Shown here piece after piece: positions 17,887-46,480 of a DNA stretch of 64,000 bases (within the stretch, counting starts at the first letter, position 1; every line of letters starts with the position of its first letter). The DNA comes from Pagrus major (taxonomy: Eukaryota > Chordata > Actinopteri > Spariformes > Sparidae). Made by a program: the position numbers and the translations under genes. The stretch is from the NCBI RefSeq assembly GCF_040436345.1, contig NC_133234.1, positions 7,812,446-7,876,445 of the forward strand, given 5' to 3'. The notes beneath the pieces are model-generated. The model did no database searches and was not told where the DNA came from. It saw only the letters and a program-made list of their open reading frames with translations.

Positions 17887-18343
17887 GCCGTAGAGATCTG
17901 CCTTCTCTCGAATATAATGGAACTAGATGGCACTCGGTTTGTGGTGCTCAAAGAGCAAAAAAAAAAAAAAAAAAAATTGAAAGACTCAACAGCAATGTCT
18001 CTTTTTAGAAATCGTGACACAGTTACACAAGATAATCCACAGACCTTGTTAGGAGCAGTGTCATGTAGGAACTATATCCTTTACTTAACACCGCGCAGAA
18101 GGAAATGTGCATCTACTCAAGGATGAGAGGCTAGCTTACTAAGCTGAGATGAGAATACCATGTGTTTCCTTCCGACCTTGTCACAAGCACAATGAGTAGT
18201 TGCACTTGAGTAACTGGGTCATGATTTCTAAATGAGACATTGCTCTTGAGTTTTTTAAATGTATTTTCTTGGCTCTTTGAGCACCACAAGCCGAGTGCAA
18301 TCTAGTTCCGTTATACTGGTGAGAAGGCAGACATCTCTACGGC
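17887..18343. repeat. 457-bp element with long imperfect inverted repeats
   Basis: The left arm from 17887 (GCCGTAGAGATCTGCCTTCT) pairs with the right arm ending at 18343 (AGAAGGCAGACATCTCTACG). The pairing runs through GTGGTGCTCAAAGAGC and on to AGCAATGTCTC/GAGACATTGCT, about 150 bp per arm with mismatches and an A19 run at 17959-17977. A MITE-like foldback; I recall similar blocks in other fish genomes. Confidence 0.7.
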
Positions 18344-21837: not shown

Positions 21838-22211
21838 GCCAATAATAGGATAGAATAGAATACCAGTATCACAAACTGGCATGGTTTGTGGTTTGTGCAC
21901 AGGACAGGAAGGCCGTGCAGCGGATGATTAAAGGTGCAATATGTAAGATTTGGCCACCTCTCAAATTCATGCGACTGCAAACCAATAGCGGGCAGCATAT
22001 ATATACCAGAGTAACTGCTAACTGTTGGTTAACTTCGGTGAAGTGAGATGTCTGCACAGAGCCCAAAGGATACTTAAAGACACCCACCCCAGCCACAGTC
22101 TGTTCACCCTGCTGCCAGCTGGACAAAAGATACAGACGTATCCCCTGCCACACCAGCAGACTACAGAGCAGCTTCTTTCCTCAAGATGTGAGACTCCTTA
22201 TTTATCCTCTC
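21838..22211 (+). mobile_element. LINE ORF2 C-terminal remnant (L2/CR1-like), split by later insertions
   Basis: The sequence at 21870-21930 translates as ITNWHG then, after a shift, QDRKAVQRMIK. At 22048-22211 it reads RCLHRAQRILKDTHPSHSLF then LLPAGQKIQTY. These match the C-terminal end of non-LTR reverse transcriptase polyproteins. The two blocks are separated by a foreign MITE fragment at 21928-22032, and the LINE is cut at 22211 by the TTAA transposon. The 3' UTR probably resumes at 27755. Old and not coding. Confidence 0.7.
21928..22032 (+). repeat. MITE fragment, 'AGGTGCAATATGTAAG' family
   Basis: Begins TTAAAGGTGCAATATGTAAG and lies between two halves of the LINE remnant. A related copy lies in the opposite orientation near 5940-6043, ending CTTACATAGTGCATCTTTAA. 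The right boundary is not clean. Confidence 0.55.
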
Positions 22212-22215
22212 TTAA

Positions 22216-22235
22216 AGCTAGGGTCTGTAATCCTG
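22216..22235 (+). repeat. left terminal inverted repeat of the 5.5-kb element
   Basis: Twenty bases identical to the reverse complement of 27731-27750. The TTAA target duplication sits immediately outside, at 22212-22215. Confidence 0.95.
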
Positions 22236-22474
22236 GAAAACTAGCAAGAGAGCGAGCAAGAATTGAAAAATGCACCTCCTCCTGCCTCCTCTAAGTTCCT
22301 CCCCCCTGCTCCCCCTCCCGTCAGTGAGTCCGTCCAAGCCACGCCCCCACACACAGGAACGCGCACAGCCGCACACCAAAAATGACAAGCGGCACGGAGA
22401 GGGAAGCTAACCTGGAGCTAACCTAAAGAGCTAGCTATTTCGGAGTATTTTGGAGGACAACAACGAACAGAATC

Positions 22475-23578
22475 ATGTCTCATTTATCTGTAAGTAAACT
22501 ATATTATTATGTTTTTTGTTTTGTTTTCTAGCACATCAGTCTGTGCAGACCCAGAGGCAGGTCGGGTCTGAATCTGCCGAATCTCTCCAAGGATCCGGCT
22601 GGATACAGACCCATCAGCTAAATTACATTGTAATACGTGTTACGTGTTATTCACTGACAAACGTGTTTTATTTTTATTATTATTGTTATTAGTCACATAG
22701 CATGTAATAGCAACTCGGTTTTTTCATTGACAATAATGCAGGGTAATGCAGAAGTGTTAGAGAAGTAAATTTGGGCCAATATGTCAATTTTACTCTAAAA
22801 ATTAGTTAGACAGAAATGCTATTAGGCTAACGATATCTTTGTTGTTTGATTGTTAGAGTTTACATGATCAGAGCACTGGCTCAGATCCGAGCTACAGTCC
22901 GCAACCGAGCACGTCTTCAGCTCCAAGAGGACGCGGTCGTGCTAGAGCCAGAGGAGGCCGTGCTCGAGGGGCTGCAAGGGGCAGAGGCCGAGGAACTCGA
23001 GGTCAAGGACGTGGAGCAAGCCGGACTGCGACTGGAGAGCGTTTACAAGATGAGGATATTCAACGAATGGAGAATCTGCAAGCTCAAAGAATTGCAGAAG
23101 AGCAGGTAGCCTTTCTAAAATAGCCTTTTGCCCCCCATGATCTCCACATTATCTAGAACGGTAAACAATGACATGCCATTTACTGTGAGCACAACATTTC
23201 TTTTAGTTTATTGTCATTCATAAACTGTAAAAGAAAAATATAAACAAATTAAATTTTCAACTCTGGTCTGGCAACAAACCAAAAATAATATTAGTAATAA
23301 TAAAGGACAAGGTCTAATCTTCTTGATGAACTGTTTTTTTTTACAGGCTAGAATTGGACGACTGAGCTTGGAAGAATCCCATCAGGTGCTTCAGATCTGC
23401 CTTACAAGGGACCCAAGCCTCCTGTTCGACGTCCTGCAGATCTCAGCATCAGTGGCAATATGGGGCACTGGGTGCTGGGCACAGAGTGGTTATTCCTAGT
23501 TGCTGTGTCTGGAAAATCAGAGACCGCTACCCAGACCCCAATGGACAGTACAAGGGTTTTGTCCCTAGCAGAGTCTGA
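22475..23578 (+). pseudogene. P2X7-tail ('ballast') domain protein with RG-rich N-terminus, transposon-borne, core deleted
   Basis: Three exons with consensus splice sites: 22475-22489 (MSHLS, donor GTAAGT), 22857-23105 and 23347 onward. Exon 2 encodes 83 residues: a Ser/Pro start, an Arg-Gly tract of about 30 residues (GRGRARARGGRARGAARGRG) and a charged helix (ERLQDEDIQRMENLQAQ). Exon 3 starts with a helix ending [11 protein letters not shown], as in P2X7 intracellular-domain proteins. It then passes into another frame and stops at TAG 23497-23499. In the +1 frame from about 23437 to TGA 23576-23578 the sequence reads [17 protein letters not shown] then [16 protein letters not shown], the typical end of the P2X7 tail. 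The Cys/His-rich zinc and nucleotide-binding core between these parts is absent, so a frame-shifting deletion has removed it. It has no transmembrane or ATP-binding ectodomain, so it is not a p2rx7 receptor gene. Confidence 0.75.
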
Positions 23579-23723
23579 AAAGAGATCTAAAGATTTACAC
23601 TGAAGCCCTGCCATTTATATGGCAACATTTGGACTGAGGTTTACATTATGCACATAACAAGGTTGTTTATATTTTACTTTTATTTAAAATTTGTCTCTTG
23701 TTATTTATATTTTGTCATTTTTG

Positions 23724-23729
23724 AATAAA
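23724..23729 (+). terminator. poly(A) signal of the P2X7-tail-like gene
   Basis: AATAAA about 145 nt after the ancestral stop codon at 23576 and in the same strand. It faces the opposing signal at 23849-23854. Confidence 0.6.
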
Positions 23730-23848
23730 ACTTTTGAAAAAGATGAATGCCTTTCATTGTACTATATCTGCAAAACAAGCAATAGATTTTCTCACCACCA
23801 CATTCAAAATAAGTGATTACAAACAACAACAAAATTGGTATAACTCTT

Positions 23849-23854
23849 TTTATT
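23849..23854 (-). terminator. poly(A) signal of the minus-strand transposase gene
   Basis: AATAAA on the minus strand about 105 nt past the transposase stop at 23958. The two element genes therefore end convergently about 120 bp apart. Confidence 0.55.
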
Positions 23855-23957
23855 GTTACATAAATAATCTGTAGATTTTCAAGAATAGTATATACATGGT
23901 GTTTCCAGGGATGGGAGACAGGTCAGGCTGTGTGGAGTAGTTGTCAGCTGTGGTGAT

Positions 23958-26723
23958 CTACTCCTTTGGCAGTGATTTACCTTTAGGAAGAATATCACAA
24001 TTACACATCTGATAATAATTAATAAATTTTTTGAGACAATCAATGAATAAGAATACTTAGAGCGTGTACATAATGTGTACATTATGTTATAACTTCATCA
24101 AGCTACAATATTGTAAGAAAACTCACCTAGGCCTCTGCTGAGTTGGGTCTGCAAAAGTTCCTGCATCGATGGAGCTGGGACACCTGACAGAACCCCATGT
24201 TGACGTGGATCATCTGGCCTTTTCCTTGCAGTCCGTGGCAAACCCCCAGTAGCAGACAGCCTGCACCGCAGAATTGCACTTTGAAGGTCTGGAATGTAGC
24301 TGTAGTCCTTCTCCACCTTTTCTGTGTACAGGCTCCACTTCTTTGACTTTTTGTTGTACACCTTGCCGTATCTGTAATAAGAGAAAAGATAAGAAGCTTT
24401 GTGATACATTCATATTAGCATAGAATTTAGTCAGGGTGGAGTTGTATGCGTCAAGGTCTGAGGCATAAAGCTCTGCCCGCAGTTGAACAATGTCTGAAGG
24501 GAGCAACATCTATCATAACCACTGTAATTTCAACTTATTTCTAAGACACACAACCTCCCACATTCTCACCAAAATATCAGACTTTTAAATTGTAATTGTA
24601 AATTGAATCCCTTTAGATTTCAACTACCTGAGACACCAAACATCTCACTTTCTCATCAATACTCAAATCCTTTTGTATTTTAAATTGTGCTGACTAGACC
24701 TCTTAGCTTCACACTTCAGGGGGTCACTGCCCATCTGTGAAAGACAAAAGAGTGTGAAAACACACCCTAGGTAAGAGGACGACCCTACAGCAGACAAAGG
24801 ACGTAAAGCACACATCAGAGGTGGGCTTTTACTCAGGTGTAAATGTTTCCCTTCATTTTGAACCGCAAGCATGTTGATTGACCTTTTCTTTGCAAAGAAA
24901 ATAAAAACCTTGTTGGCTGAAGGAAGTCTCTATTCTTCACCCTTGTGCACCCTTATGAAAAATGTACGTTCTTAACATTTGGGGACAAAAATGTCCTCTT
25001 CAAAAACACCAAGAAAGGTATCTTAATATTTTTTGGCCTTTTTTTTTGCTCATCAGTGTTCACATGCTTGACTGTGCTAATCCTCCTATAAAAAAATAAA
25101 CCTTTAATGTATGTTTTTAACCAAAATCTGTGCACTGTGATGTCCTCTTGAATTCTGGAAATTAAAAATAAGTATTTTATTTTTATAAGATAAAAATGAA
25201 CATACTGAATCGAGCCATCAGTCCTTTTCTTGACTGGTGATTATGGAACGACTCCAATTCTGCAGTAGACCTGAGAGCACAGAGAGCATTTACAATTACT
25301 TCAGAATCTGATTATGACAATTATGACTGACAAGAAGTCAAAGTTTCATTGTGAAAACAGTAAGTGGAACATAGACCTATACTGACTTACCGGAAATGTA
25401 GATATTTGTGTACATTCTTTAGCCAGCGTGCGTCAAGGACAACTTCTCTCAGTCTCTGGTGTGCTACAGAATTCTTCTCGATCCAGGTCTTCTCTCTGTC
25501 CTCCACCAAGGGACCATGGTGACAGGCACCTAAGGCCCACGCATGTGTTCCTGACACGTGGTGAAGCAGGCCAGCCCACATGTCCTAAGAAAAATAAATG
25601 TGGTCAATAACAAAAGAATCAATTTCTCCAAAATAACTATTACAAAATAAAATCTGGCCTAGATATTTTTATTTCTATAATACTTACAAAGAACTCTGTG
25701 TATGTATCTGCAGTCTTGCAGCAATACCAGAAGTGGTTGCAGATGTCTTTGGTCCACATCTGAAGGATGGCACACCCCTTTTGTTGTCCTGCCTGGACAT
25801 TGCATCAGAATTACATTGTAGGAATGTCAAATTAGTTTCTGAAATTTAAGTAGATGATATTTTTTAAATCCAGCTATATCAATCTACATAGAGATTGACT
25901 ATGATTTTACAGTAAATTTTACTCTGCAAATTATTGGACAAAACCATCTGACTAATCTTAAAATAAATTGGACCTGGTGTGCTTCTTCCTCCCTCGTCAC
26001 AAACTGGGCCGCACGGCCGTGACAAAGGAAGGAGAAGCACACAAGGATTCAATTAACAAAAAACGCAAAAAGAACAAAATAAACTAAGCATGGCGTGTGT
26101 GGTCAGTAACATACCTTGCATCCAATTGCTGAAGAGCTGTCTCCTCTGGGCAGCTTATGTCCAAATCCTGAACCCCAGCTACTGAGAAGTCTTCATCGCT
26201 GTGAAGATTACACAATTAGAGAATACTGTCAGTGCAGCATCAACATACATTTACCCTTCATTCATAGAGGACAAAACATGGAACTGTTTGTGTATGTATA
26301 ATGTAGAAATAGAAGTCTTGGGTTTGGCAGTTGGACCAAAAAAGCATAAAGATTGATATAAACTGAAGATCCACAGTTGTCCCTATCCTCACTGCATAGC
26401 ATGTACAGACTACTGCAGCCCATGACAAGCTTGTAACATGATCAATTACTCCACCAACACCACACAAAGTTAGAGGTACAACTTATGGTAGCTGTGTTTT
26501 ATTTTAGTGTTGGTTGTTGTTTTAGTTGATGTTAACAACTCTGTGTTGAGTGCTGGACCTCCTATGGTGAAGGACAGTGATCTAATCACTAACATTTACA
26601 TGTATTTATAATGTTTGTATAATGATATGGCAGATATCACTGATAATAATACCTCAAATAGCACTTTGAGGCACATAAAACAGAAAAGGCTAGATGTAAA
26701 AGCGTTGACAAATTCATATTCAT

Positions 26724-26754
<31 letters not shown>

Positions 26755-27389
26755 AGTTGAACTCACCGGTCGGAAAGAGACTCAGACACAATAGTTGAAA
26801 CTGGCGGGGGAGGTGGCCTCATCAATCCTTTAGACGGCGTCGAGGTTGATGGATCCTTCTCATAGCTATGAAACATAAATGAGCTACGTCACCGCGGTTG
26901 TAAAAGCCAATATATGTACGTCTTTTATCACAATAACACAGACACAGACGACTATGGTAGTAGAGTAATATCTTGTATAAAATCAGTATACTATAATCTA
27001 TTCAATACTAGCGTCATCGGCCCGTTTTACACCACAGAGAAGCTAATATTAGCATTTGGCTAATACAAGCTACAATAGTAGCTACGTTAGCAAAAGTTAG
27101 CCTACATTTTCATGAAAATAAGAAATCCTCCCTGAGGCTAAACAAATAATTACCTGTCCAACAGAAAGACGGCAACCTCGGCATCACTTTTGAGTCTCTT
27201 CAGATCCCTCAGTTGTCTCCACCGCTCAAAAGCTGAACCAATGTTGACTCTGGTTTTCGCTCTTGCTTTATCCAGAAGCTTTTTGTTTGCAGACTTTTCT
27301 TCCTCTGGCTTTCTCTTTTTTGCCTTTTTCTCTGGAAGAGCCGTAACAAGTAACCGTTGAGGCGGTTTGGGCTGCGTTTTCTCAGCCAT
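23958..27389 (-). pseudogene. Kolobok-like transposase, about seven exons, internally deleted
   Basis: Recognised as the large teleost transposase family with RxRVNIGSAFxRWRxLRxLKxLKxDAEVAxFLL, a W-K-D-I-x-N-H-F-W block and LExFHNH. Exons in order: 27154-27389 (start ATG 27389, basic N-terminus, DAEVAVFLLD); 26767-26865 (SYEKDPSTSTPSKGLMRPPP); 26115-26198 (DEDFSVAGVQDLDISC); about 25688-25792 (WTKDICNHFWYCCKTADTYT); 25391-25584 (DMWAGLLHHVSG, CHHGPLVEDREKTW); 25206-25270 (STAELESFHNH then KKRTDGSIQ); 24127-24371 (KVYNKKSKKWSLY, DYSYIPDLQSAILR); 23958-23980 (GKSLPKE, stop TAG). Donors and acceptors are consensus. The 25206-25270 exon has lost roughly 30 residues after FHNH and changes frame there. 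The fourth exon is also out of frame with the third, implying a lost 5' part. The element is therefore non-coding for a full transposase. The acidic catalytic triad cannot be assigned with certainty; E in LESFHNH is a candidate. Confidence 0.8.
26724..26753. repeat. (AGC)10 trinucleotide repeat in a transposase intron
   Basis: Ten AGC units between the second and third transposase exons, just outside a splice donor (26761-26766). Not coding. Confidence 0.9.
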
Positions 27390-27730
27390 TGCTCAAATGA
27401 TCACGAAATCCGTTCTATAACTCTGTAGTCCTGCAGAGGTTTACTGAATCGGCAGCAGGCAGCAAGACCTGAAGGCGGTGCGCGCTCCGTAGGAGGGGGC
27501 GGGTGCAGAACTAGACATGAAGGCATCTGATTGGTTCCTTAGTCTCCGAGCAAACTTCGACCAATCCGTGCTATTCAGACCGAAGGGAACGGATAGGGGG
27601 GAGTTTTCTCAGTCTTGCGGCTGTCACAGAGCTCTGTTATTTTCCATTCCTTTTCCTGCTGACATAGCGTACCGATTCCTCTGAAATTAGACGGGCCATT
27701 TCCCCCAGTATAAGAAAAAGTGCTTTTGAA

Positions 27731-27750
27731 CAGGATTACAGACCCTAGCT
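27731..27750 (-). repeat. right terminal inverted repeat of the 5.5-kb element
   Basis: Exact inverted copy of 22216-22235, followed by TTAA at 27751-27754. Similarity stops abruptly at 20 bp. Confidence 0.95.
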
Positions 27751-27754
27751 TTAA

Positions 27755-27880
27755 CACTCCACATGTATACTCTATTTTTTCCAACTTGATTATTATTTAT
27801 CAATGAGTCTTTATAGTTTTTGTTTTTGTGTGTATGTAGCTTCATCTTGAACTTTAATATTAAAATGGAAAAAAAATGAC
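27755..27880 (+). mobile_element. probable 3' UTR of the interrupted LINE
   Basis: Follows directly after the right TTAA of the 5.5-kb element and so continues the LINE remnant that ends at 22211. AT-rich, ends vaguely; no coding sequence. The right limit is a guess. Confidence 0.35.
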
Positions 27881-45283: not shown

Positions 45284-46356
45284 TTAACTGATCACGCATC
45301 TCTCTTTGTCTTTACCCTGGCCGCCTCCTATCGCCTTCTCCTTTATGTACATGAGGTCGCTGTGCACGCTGGGTCTCCGGGCGCACGGAGTGACCACGCC
45401 GTACGCTTCCCCAATGTCCTTCATCTTCTTGTTTTTCAGAGACTTTCTGTGCAGCATGTCGCAGTACTGCACGGACACTTTCCGGTGAAGGTCGGGGCTC
45501 ATTTCGTGAGGCAGTTTGGCCAAGGTGAACAGAGTCTGAAACATCTTATCCACGTTCTCGTTGCGCTTGGCGGAGATCTCGAAGTACGCGCACTTCTCGT
45601 CCCCGGCCACCAGCTGCTCGATCTCCTCCTGCTGCACCTCCCGGTAAAACTCTCGGTCGCCCTTGTTCCCGCAGATGACCAGAGGCACGTCGATGTTCTC
45701 TTTGATCTTGTTTTTCAGACACGACTTGGTCTCGAAGATTTGCCGCTTGAGCCGCTGCACCTCCTGGAAGGAGTCGCGGTTGTCCAGGCTGAAGACGAGG
45801 ATGAACACGTCACCTGGAGATAGAGAGAGATAGGGAGAGAAGGATGCTTTGGTTAGATTGGACTGCTTTCGATGCATGCAAAGTCTCACATATGCGACCT
45901 ATGTGTTTTAATGCTATCATATACTGTTGCCCGCTGCAGCCGTGCGCTCAGGGCGCACGGTGCGCTCAGGGCGCACGGGGATCTCATATTTGTACCACTC
46001 AAAATGCACTTTTGCATTTTTAAAATTGCTTTCTGATTAATTGTAACTTGTCTTAAAACATAAGGACACAGATGTGGATAAGTACCTGTCAGTATGGACA
46101 GTCTCCTCATGGCGGGGAATGGGTGGTTCCCTGATGTATCCAGTATGTCTAGCTGGTAAACGTCTCCCTTGATGCTGTACAGTTTCCTGTGAAAGTCCTC
46201 GATGGTCGGCGTGTACTGGTCGTCAAACCTCCCGTTCAGGAACCGGGACACGATGGCCGTTTTCCCGACTTTTGTGGATCCCAAAATCACCATTCTGTAG
46301 CAGTTCTTCGCTGGGATGTCATAATCGCTCTCGGAGGGCGACATTTTCTTAATCAT
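45284..46356 (-). CDS. rasd1: RASD1 (Dexras1) Ras-family small GTPase, two exons, complete
   Basis: Membrane-anchored Ras-like GTPase; the mammalian orthologue is dexamethasone-inducible and modulates G-protein and adenylyl cyclase signalling (family knowledge). Coding exons are 46086-46356 and 45284-45813. The 272-bp intron has a GT donor (ACAG/GTACTT) and AG acceptor (CTCCAG/GTGACG), phase 1. The product is 266 aa, against about 280 in human. Visible motifs: P-loop GSTKVGKT (residues 26-33), effector YTPTIED (48-54), DTSGN (73-77, the RASD form of DxxGQ), NKGD (140-143), SAK (171-173) and C-terminal CVIS farnesylation box (263-266). The RASD-specific basic C-terminal extension, including the stretch ARRPSVHSDLMYI, is kept. 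The start was chosen at ATG 46356 (context AACCATGA); mammalian RASD1 begins a few residues further upstream. The conserved DLHRKVSVQYCD segment and tail favour RASD1 over RASD2. No frame breaks are seen. Confidence 0.96.
45943..45978. repeat. 2 x 18-bp perfect tandem repeat inside the rasd1 intron
   Basis: Two identical 18-bp units, TGCGCTCAGGGCGCACGG, lie head to tail in the single rasd1 intron. Each unit is itself a near-palindrome (CGTGCGC/GCGCACG arms), so hairpins are possible in DNA or pre-mRNA. No function is known to me. Confidence 0.85.
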
Positions 46357-46480
46357 GGTTGTACGCTGGTTCGTGGACTAAGTGCGAGTGCGTAAAATGC
46401 AGCTGAGCAGCCTTTGGTGCGTAAAGATGCCGTAGCTTGCTCTGCTGTGAGTTTCTGTCTGAAATCCGAACTGCAGCCCT

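Follow-up and report, generated by a model that had tools for sequence, protein, structure and literature searches.

The window analysed here, a 64-kb stretch of DNA (C20:7812446-7876445), holds what is very probably a shortened copy of a Kolobok DNA transposon in which both genes, a transposase and a P2X7-tail-like gene called KolX, are broken, which spread by means of proteins supplied by other copies, and whose KolX we infer to be a transposition helper. The copy belongs to a young, nearly uniform Kolobok family in which two copies carry a full KolX and nested KolX-deleted copies lie at different sites. Such a family is natural material on what KolX does, a gene that the accessible text of PMC9587614 gives as the source of the P2X7 ballast.

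Results

The insertion and its site

The initial annotation had described an element with clean 20-bp inverted ends and a TTAA duplication, and this description was confirmed: 5,535 bp lie between TTAA duplications, and the inverted ends, 24 bp long with the TTAA counted in, are 100% complementary (22212-22235 and 27731-27754, with 5,495 nt between the arms). The boundaries are as follows.

22212..22215, no strand: left TTAA target-site duplication; single, and reading TCAA, in the two unfilled paralogues that were aligned
22216..22235, plus strand: left terminal inverted repeat, AGCTAGGGTCTGTAATCCTG (inverted-repeat search and family ends)
27731..27750, minus strand: right terminal inverted repeat (inverted-repeat search and family ends)
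27751..27754, no strand: right TTAA target-site duplication (inverted-repeat search and copy alignment)

Unfilled sites were sought in the whole genome (786 Mb, 25 contigs) with a query in which both element flanks were joined at one TTAA, and 40 of 1,342 candidates were scored. Two of these were the window's own flanks; the other 38 lie elsewhere in the genome and are continuous over the join. In both unfilled paralogues that were aligned, the target site is single but reads TCAA. Because related copies of the host repeat thus have unfilled sites, the element ends are correctly placed. The host itself (22118-22215 and 27755-27862) is an interspersed repeat present in many copies, whose 38 scored relatives are 75-83% identical to it; its frame, which we take to resemble the final part of a LINE ORF for reverse transcriptase, found no match in a Pfam search.

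Elsewhere in the window, two minus-strand frames at 45284-46377 belong to a gene for a Ras-family GTPase that ends in CVIS (the frame 45287-45898 scores 61.8 bits with Pfam Ras); presumably this gene is like Rasd1/Dexras. An 85-nt inverted repeat, 82% complementary with its arms 275 nt apart (17892-17976 and 18252-18336), is perhaps a short foldback element. Rfam gave nothing in the 64-kb window at gathering scores.

A family with nested deletions

With up to two mismatches allowed, the end sequence has 14 matches in the genome, compared with one for a reversed control pattern. Twelve of the 14 bound six elements, and the remaining two are lone ends: L042 resembles the C5 copy only over stretches of 25-39 nt, and L040 showed no similarity to it at E 1e-3. 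The possibility that many short relatives carry the same ends was also considered, and at up to two mismatches no such swarm was seen genome-wide. The six copies are these.

C5: 8,384 bp
C17: 8,382 bp
C11: 8,094 bp
C20 (the window copy): 5,535 bp
C21a (L010), C21:30141757-30147380: 5,624 bp
C21b (L011), C21:30156318-30161941: 5,624 bp, about 14.6 kb from C21a

Every one of the six has the TTAA and the terminal AG...CT. C5 and C17 align over 8,395 columns with 99.6% identity, and outside its deletions the window copy is 99.1-100% identical to C5. C21a and C21b are identical, 300 bp of flank per side included, and probably represent a recent segmental duplication; counted as such, the family comprises five independent insertions, two with a full KolX and three with a 281-bp deletion in it. 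In this pair, 235 bp of the left flank are repeated in the right flank.

Compared with C5, C11 lacks only these 281 bp, apart from one 9-bp difference; the C21 copies lack them together with a large stretch; and the window copy has three gaps, of 281 bp, 100 bp and 2,465 bp, the last with a single extra base at its junction. The deletions, one in C11, two in C21 and three in the window, are therefore nested. At two deletion junctions 1-2 bases match the far side, and at one an additional T is present, a pattern that resembles end joining and may have arisen in that way. Near the large deletion junction, 28-nt arms that are 82% complementary form an inverted repeat around an 18-nt spacer (25973-26046). 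The simplest reading of the series is that KolX-broken copies moved to further sites, with a separate TTAA at each, although gene conversion between copies might also account for the deletions common to several of them. Both full-length copies are altered as well, C5 by a stop in a transposase exon and C17 by the replacement of a KolX ballast cysteine with tyrosine; either change may be damaging.

KolX in the window and in the full-length copies

In C5, conceptual splicing joins exons of 5, 83 and 170 amino acids at GT/AG into a KolX of 258 amino acids. The window retains the following parts of this gene.

22475..22489, plus strand: KolX exon 1 (MSHLS), followed by GT (conceptual splicing)
22857..23105, plus strand: KolX exon 2, RG-rich, with nine RG dipeptides in 83 amino acids (splicing and RG scan)
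23347..23499, plus strand: KolX exon 3 of the window copy, with exon start, frameshift and stop TAG at 23497-23499
23444..23560, plus strand: P2RX7_C (PF20478) match, a C-terminal remnant of the ballast, out of frame with exon 3
23452..23453, no strand: junction of the 281-bp deletion relative to C5, with the first six of the eight ballast cysteines gone (copy alignment)

The likeness to the P2X7 tail that had been proposed, together with a profile search as its check, was borne out: PF20478 matched the window copy with 46 bits (frame residues 27-65 against profile positions 153-191/192, cut-off 23.5, E 7.5e-12) and the C5 ballast exon with 105 bits. The C5 exon also matched four distinct P2X7 sequences in the PDB (E 1.2e-16 to 5.7e-16), and all eight cysteines of C5 KolX align with cysteines of the genome's own p2rx7 and of three mammalian P2X7. 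Between C5 and C17, KolX differs by two amino-acid changes, one of them at a ballast cysteine, a comparison that is hardly informative.

The last exon had further been read as running into the tail HRVVIPSC.... This tail is present in the window copy, but it is not read in frame there, because the 281-bp deletion shifted the frame: the spliced product (GT/AG) comes to 138 amino acids and ends at the TAG at 23497, and the frame of the P2RX7_C remnant continues to a stop ending at 23578. As modelled, the tail of the window copy is thus a probable untranslated remnant, unless splicing differs. An intron in place of the 281-bp gap was ruled out, since C5 codes through this stretch (in a frame of 211 amino acids) and the window frame breaks.

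Could the 138-residue KolX be a functional short form, made up of the RG-rich part and a helix and acting, for example, as a transposition repressor? The 281-bp deletion is found in four of the six copies (two independent insertions and one segmental-duplicate pair), and C11, which has it, keeps all five transposase stretches queried. However, hitch-hiking explains this spread equally well, and we consider a functional short form improbable.

A broken Kolobok transposase

A Kolobok-like transposase convergent to KolX had also been noted. Minus-strand exons of Kolobok type are indeed there, but the window copy does not have a complete catalytic part.

25237..25269, minus strand: what is left of the transposase exon for the catalytic Glu (motif TAELESFHN), truncated near 25237/25238 by a 100-bp deletion
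25390..25584, minus strand: exon with H2CH-type zinc-finger residues (sequence match)
25688..25792, minus strand: transposase exon, KGCAILQMWTKDICNHFWYCC (sequence match)
25895..25897, no strand: junction of the 2,465-bp deletion (one extra base), with the exons for the first two catalytic Asp and DxxH gone
27150..27389, minus strand: probable N-terminal coding frame, MAEKTQPKPP..., predicted (open frame, no Pfam match)

C5, C17 and C11 carry the motifs GDGRMDSPG, CTDAH, LDMWH, AGLLHHVSG... (H2CH) and TAELESFHN, and with them a DDD/E triad that has C/DxxH between the second D and E. In the window copy this arrangement is lost: the first two Asp and DxxH are deleted, and the H2CH exon and the Glu motif are kept. 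The zinc finger between DxxH and the last Glu is the HHVSGTHAWALGACHHG exon, retained in the window copy. In C5, the stop in the H2CH exon stands directly before AGLLHHVSG, at a place where C17 and C11 have Trp. The Kolobok transposase exons matched no Pfam family above cut-off.

According to PMC9587614, Koloboks follow the order DDD/E, C/DxxH and zinc finger before the last Glu, the same as that of the motifs in C5, C17 and C11, and the accessible text of PMC6004289 likewise gives H2CH, DDE, TTAA and RR ends as Kolobok features. The TTAA duplication and 5'-RR...YY-3' termini (AG...CT) are present here too. By motifs, ends and TTAA, the window element is assigned to the Kolobok DNA transposons. 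The accessible text of PMC9587614 also describes a Kol0 type of Kolobok that encodes KolX, a protein with the ballast fold, and a KolX with the cytoplasmic ballast is recognizable by sequence in our family as well (PF20478 with 105 bits, P2X7 chains in the PDB).

The element might instead be a piggyBac that acquired a C-terminal piece of KolX, a reading to which we give almost no weight. PiggyBac also uses TTAA, and a few piggyBac families carry the C-terminal part of KolX without most cysteines (PMC9587614, accessible text), as is the case for the window KolX. However, the ends, 5'-AG...CT-3', are of the Kolobok RR/YY kind, which the same text distinguishes from piggyBac ends; the full copies carry Kolobok motifs; and the loss of cysteines goes back to the 281-bp deletion, which neither C5 nor C17 has. 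No Pfam match to a piggyBac transposase was found in four C5 transposase exon frames at E up to 1. On the ends, the motifs and the missing piggyBac match in the C5 exons, piggyBac identity was rejected.

The two genes recur together

Taken over the whole family, the picture of a P2X7-ballast accessory gene beside a transposase in a TTAA element holds, most clearly in C5 and C17, where both genes recur between the ends as a complete KolX and a convergent transposase. None of the six two-ended copies is an intact copy without the KolX gene.

In the genome at large, PF20478 has 43 matches, two of them taken as p2rx7 exons, and the KolX protein as query has 53, both counts being of exons, not genes. 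We surveyed about 10 kb around 20 KolX places and the window, 21 regions in all, which are not independent of each other because most were chosen from better-scoring matches and several are copies of one family. KolX and Kolobok-type transposase exons occur together in 18 of these 21, every time on opposite strands; in three of the 18 (L013, L021, L022) the support consists of no more than a THAP domain and a single C-terminal frame. The other three regions (L018, L020, L025) had no transposase match with the queries used. Two shorter loci, L006 and L008, have transposase matches too, again on the opposite strand.

A second KolX-bearing family has the ends TTAAAGGTGACATATT, TTAA and a convergent Kolobok-type transposase region with a THAP domain (PF05485, 46.9 bits). 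Its KolX is spread over more exons, with the cysteine part in a separate exon. THAP-type Kolobok loci with KolX measure 4.4-5.9 kb (L012, L013, L014, L016, L021); L013 and L021 have one internal deletion in common, and L016 has a smaller deletion in the same stretch.

The RG-rich exon was followed with a scan for 40-residue stretches with at least six RG/GR pairs, taking the best per frame, in 29 sources. Such a stretch was flagged in 13 of the 29, in all 13 on the KolX strand and upstream of the ballast exon, so it is a shared part of the KolX proteins close to the window family; for the same reason, general low complexity was rejected as its origin. Once overlapping loci are merged, the 13 sources come down to nine separate places, which fall into four KolX groups: the window family, C12, C22 and C14 at 3.28 Mb. 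The 16 sources without the stretch include the THAP-type loci, the p2rx7 locus and two loci, L005/L026 and L008, with damaged KolX related to that of C22. A Pfam FoP_duplication match in the RG-rich exon stayed below cut-off.

KolX and the host p2rx7

The genome's probable p2rx7 lies on C5 at 16.64 Mb and is 36% identical to C5 KolX. In a small, unrooted tree of 11 rows, in which it was flagged as a long row, it clusters with three mammalian P2X7 (100/100), and the seven KolX lie outside this cluster. This tree does not suggest that the window family is a recent source of p2rx7, or the reverse.

Other KolX in the genome are 46-64% identical to that of the window family and mostly lie beside Kolobok-type exons (C22 excepted). 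Over 150 codons, C5 and C12 KolX (64% amino-acid identity) show 0.29/0.22/0.58 differences per codon position, and C5 and C22 KolX show 0.43/0.32/0.57 over 164 codons, a pattern as would be expected under selection that keeps the protein. The C12 KolX has a frame break near its end.

These comparisons bear on another reading, in which the window element alone took up an exon of the host p2rx7 and carries the P2X7-like exon by chance. The window match would allow it, being only 39 amino acids long and out of frame. We think such a capture extremely unlikely and rejected it: C5 and C17 have a complete KolX at full length, other KolX loci exist, again mostly beside Kolobok-type exons, and the host p2rx7, at 36% identity to KolX, sits with mammalian P2X7 in the tree.

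Discussion

The study on KolX and the P2X7 fusion is reportedly by Kojima and Bao. In the accessible text of PMC9587614 (2022), P2X7 is derived from a P2X4-like gene that fused with the KolX of a Kol0 Kolobok, so the main idea of the initial annotation is already published: a mobile element as the vehicle of capture stands in the literature, and the window family as donor finds no support, p2rx7 grouping with mammalian P2X7. Our search of the accessible literature found no further paper that joins the P2X7 ballast and Kolobok. PMC7016195 reports the ballast domain across animals, and its accessible text has no word starting with 'transpos'; the review PMC9319628 mentions both P2X7 and Kolobok and draws no link between them in its accessible part. 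Beyond the accessible text of PMC9587614 go the RG-rich exon in four KolX groups, KolX in a THAP-type family and the deletion series; the supplements of that paper or Repbase may cover the window family or the RG-rich exon.

How might this family have spread? Full elements of about 8.38 kb would insert into TTAA, presumably by cut-and-paste, as is known of Kolobok transposases. KolX combines an RG-rich N-terminal part with a ballast domain of zinc type, a homologue of the P2X7 tail, and its anatomy points to a nucleic-acid-binding transposition helper able to act in trans. We propose this role because KolX is conserved between families, has an RG-rich arm and has a zinc-type domain; the Myb-like helper of Harbinger elements would be a parallel. 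As modelled, neither gene of the window copy makes a full product, so other copies must have supplied the proteins for its spread. Since KolX-broken copies apparently moved, the most that follows for KolX is that it is not needed in cis.

The RG-rich exon makes nucleic-acid binding a possible ancestral job of KolX, and this invites a bolder, rather doubtful speculation. KolX may be made of an RG-rich nucleic-acid-binding arm and a zinc-binding, perhaps also guanine-nucleotide-binding, ballast and be needed in trans for transposition; on this view the P2X7 ballast would be a nuclear transposition factor that was domesticated and lost its arm on fusion with the channel.

Finally, we would like to place the window family beside the systems it resembles. 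With the Kol0 Koloboks (Kolobok-1_XT type; PMC9587614, accessible text) it has in common TTAA, RR/YY ends, a second gene with the ballast, and a transposase with a DDD/E triad, DxxH and, ahead of the last Glu, a zinc finger. The window copy differs from this type in having lost the core of both genes, and the family's KolX has an RG-rich exon, a feature that the same text leaves unmentioned for Kol0 KolX. The TTAAAGGTGACATATT-ended family is like the window family in its TTAA, a KolX with a cysteine exon and a convergent Kolobok-type transposase, but differs in its THAP domain, its larger number of KolX exons and a KolX in which no RG-rich stretch was flagged. As to P2X7 genes, no P2X channel part was found beside the KolX ballast, which, as modelled, is instead preceded by a 5-residue exon and the RG-rich exon. 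C5 KolX is 31-36% identical to P2X7, and p2rx7 forms a separate group, yet the P2X7 ballast (PF20478) and KolX share eight aligned cysteines and the ending IPSCC.W..R...P...GQY.GF.
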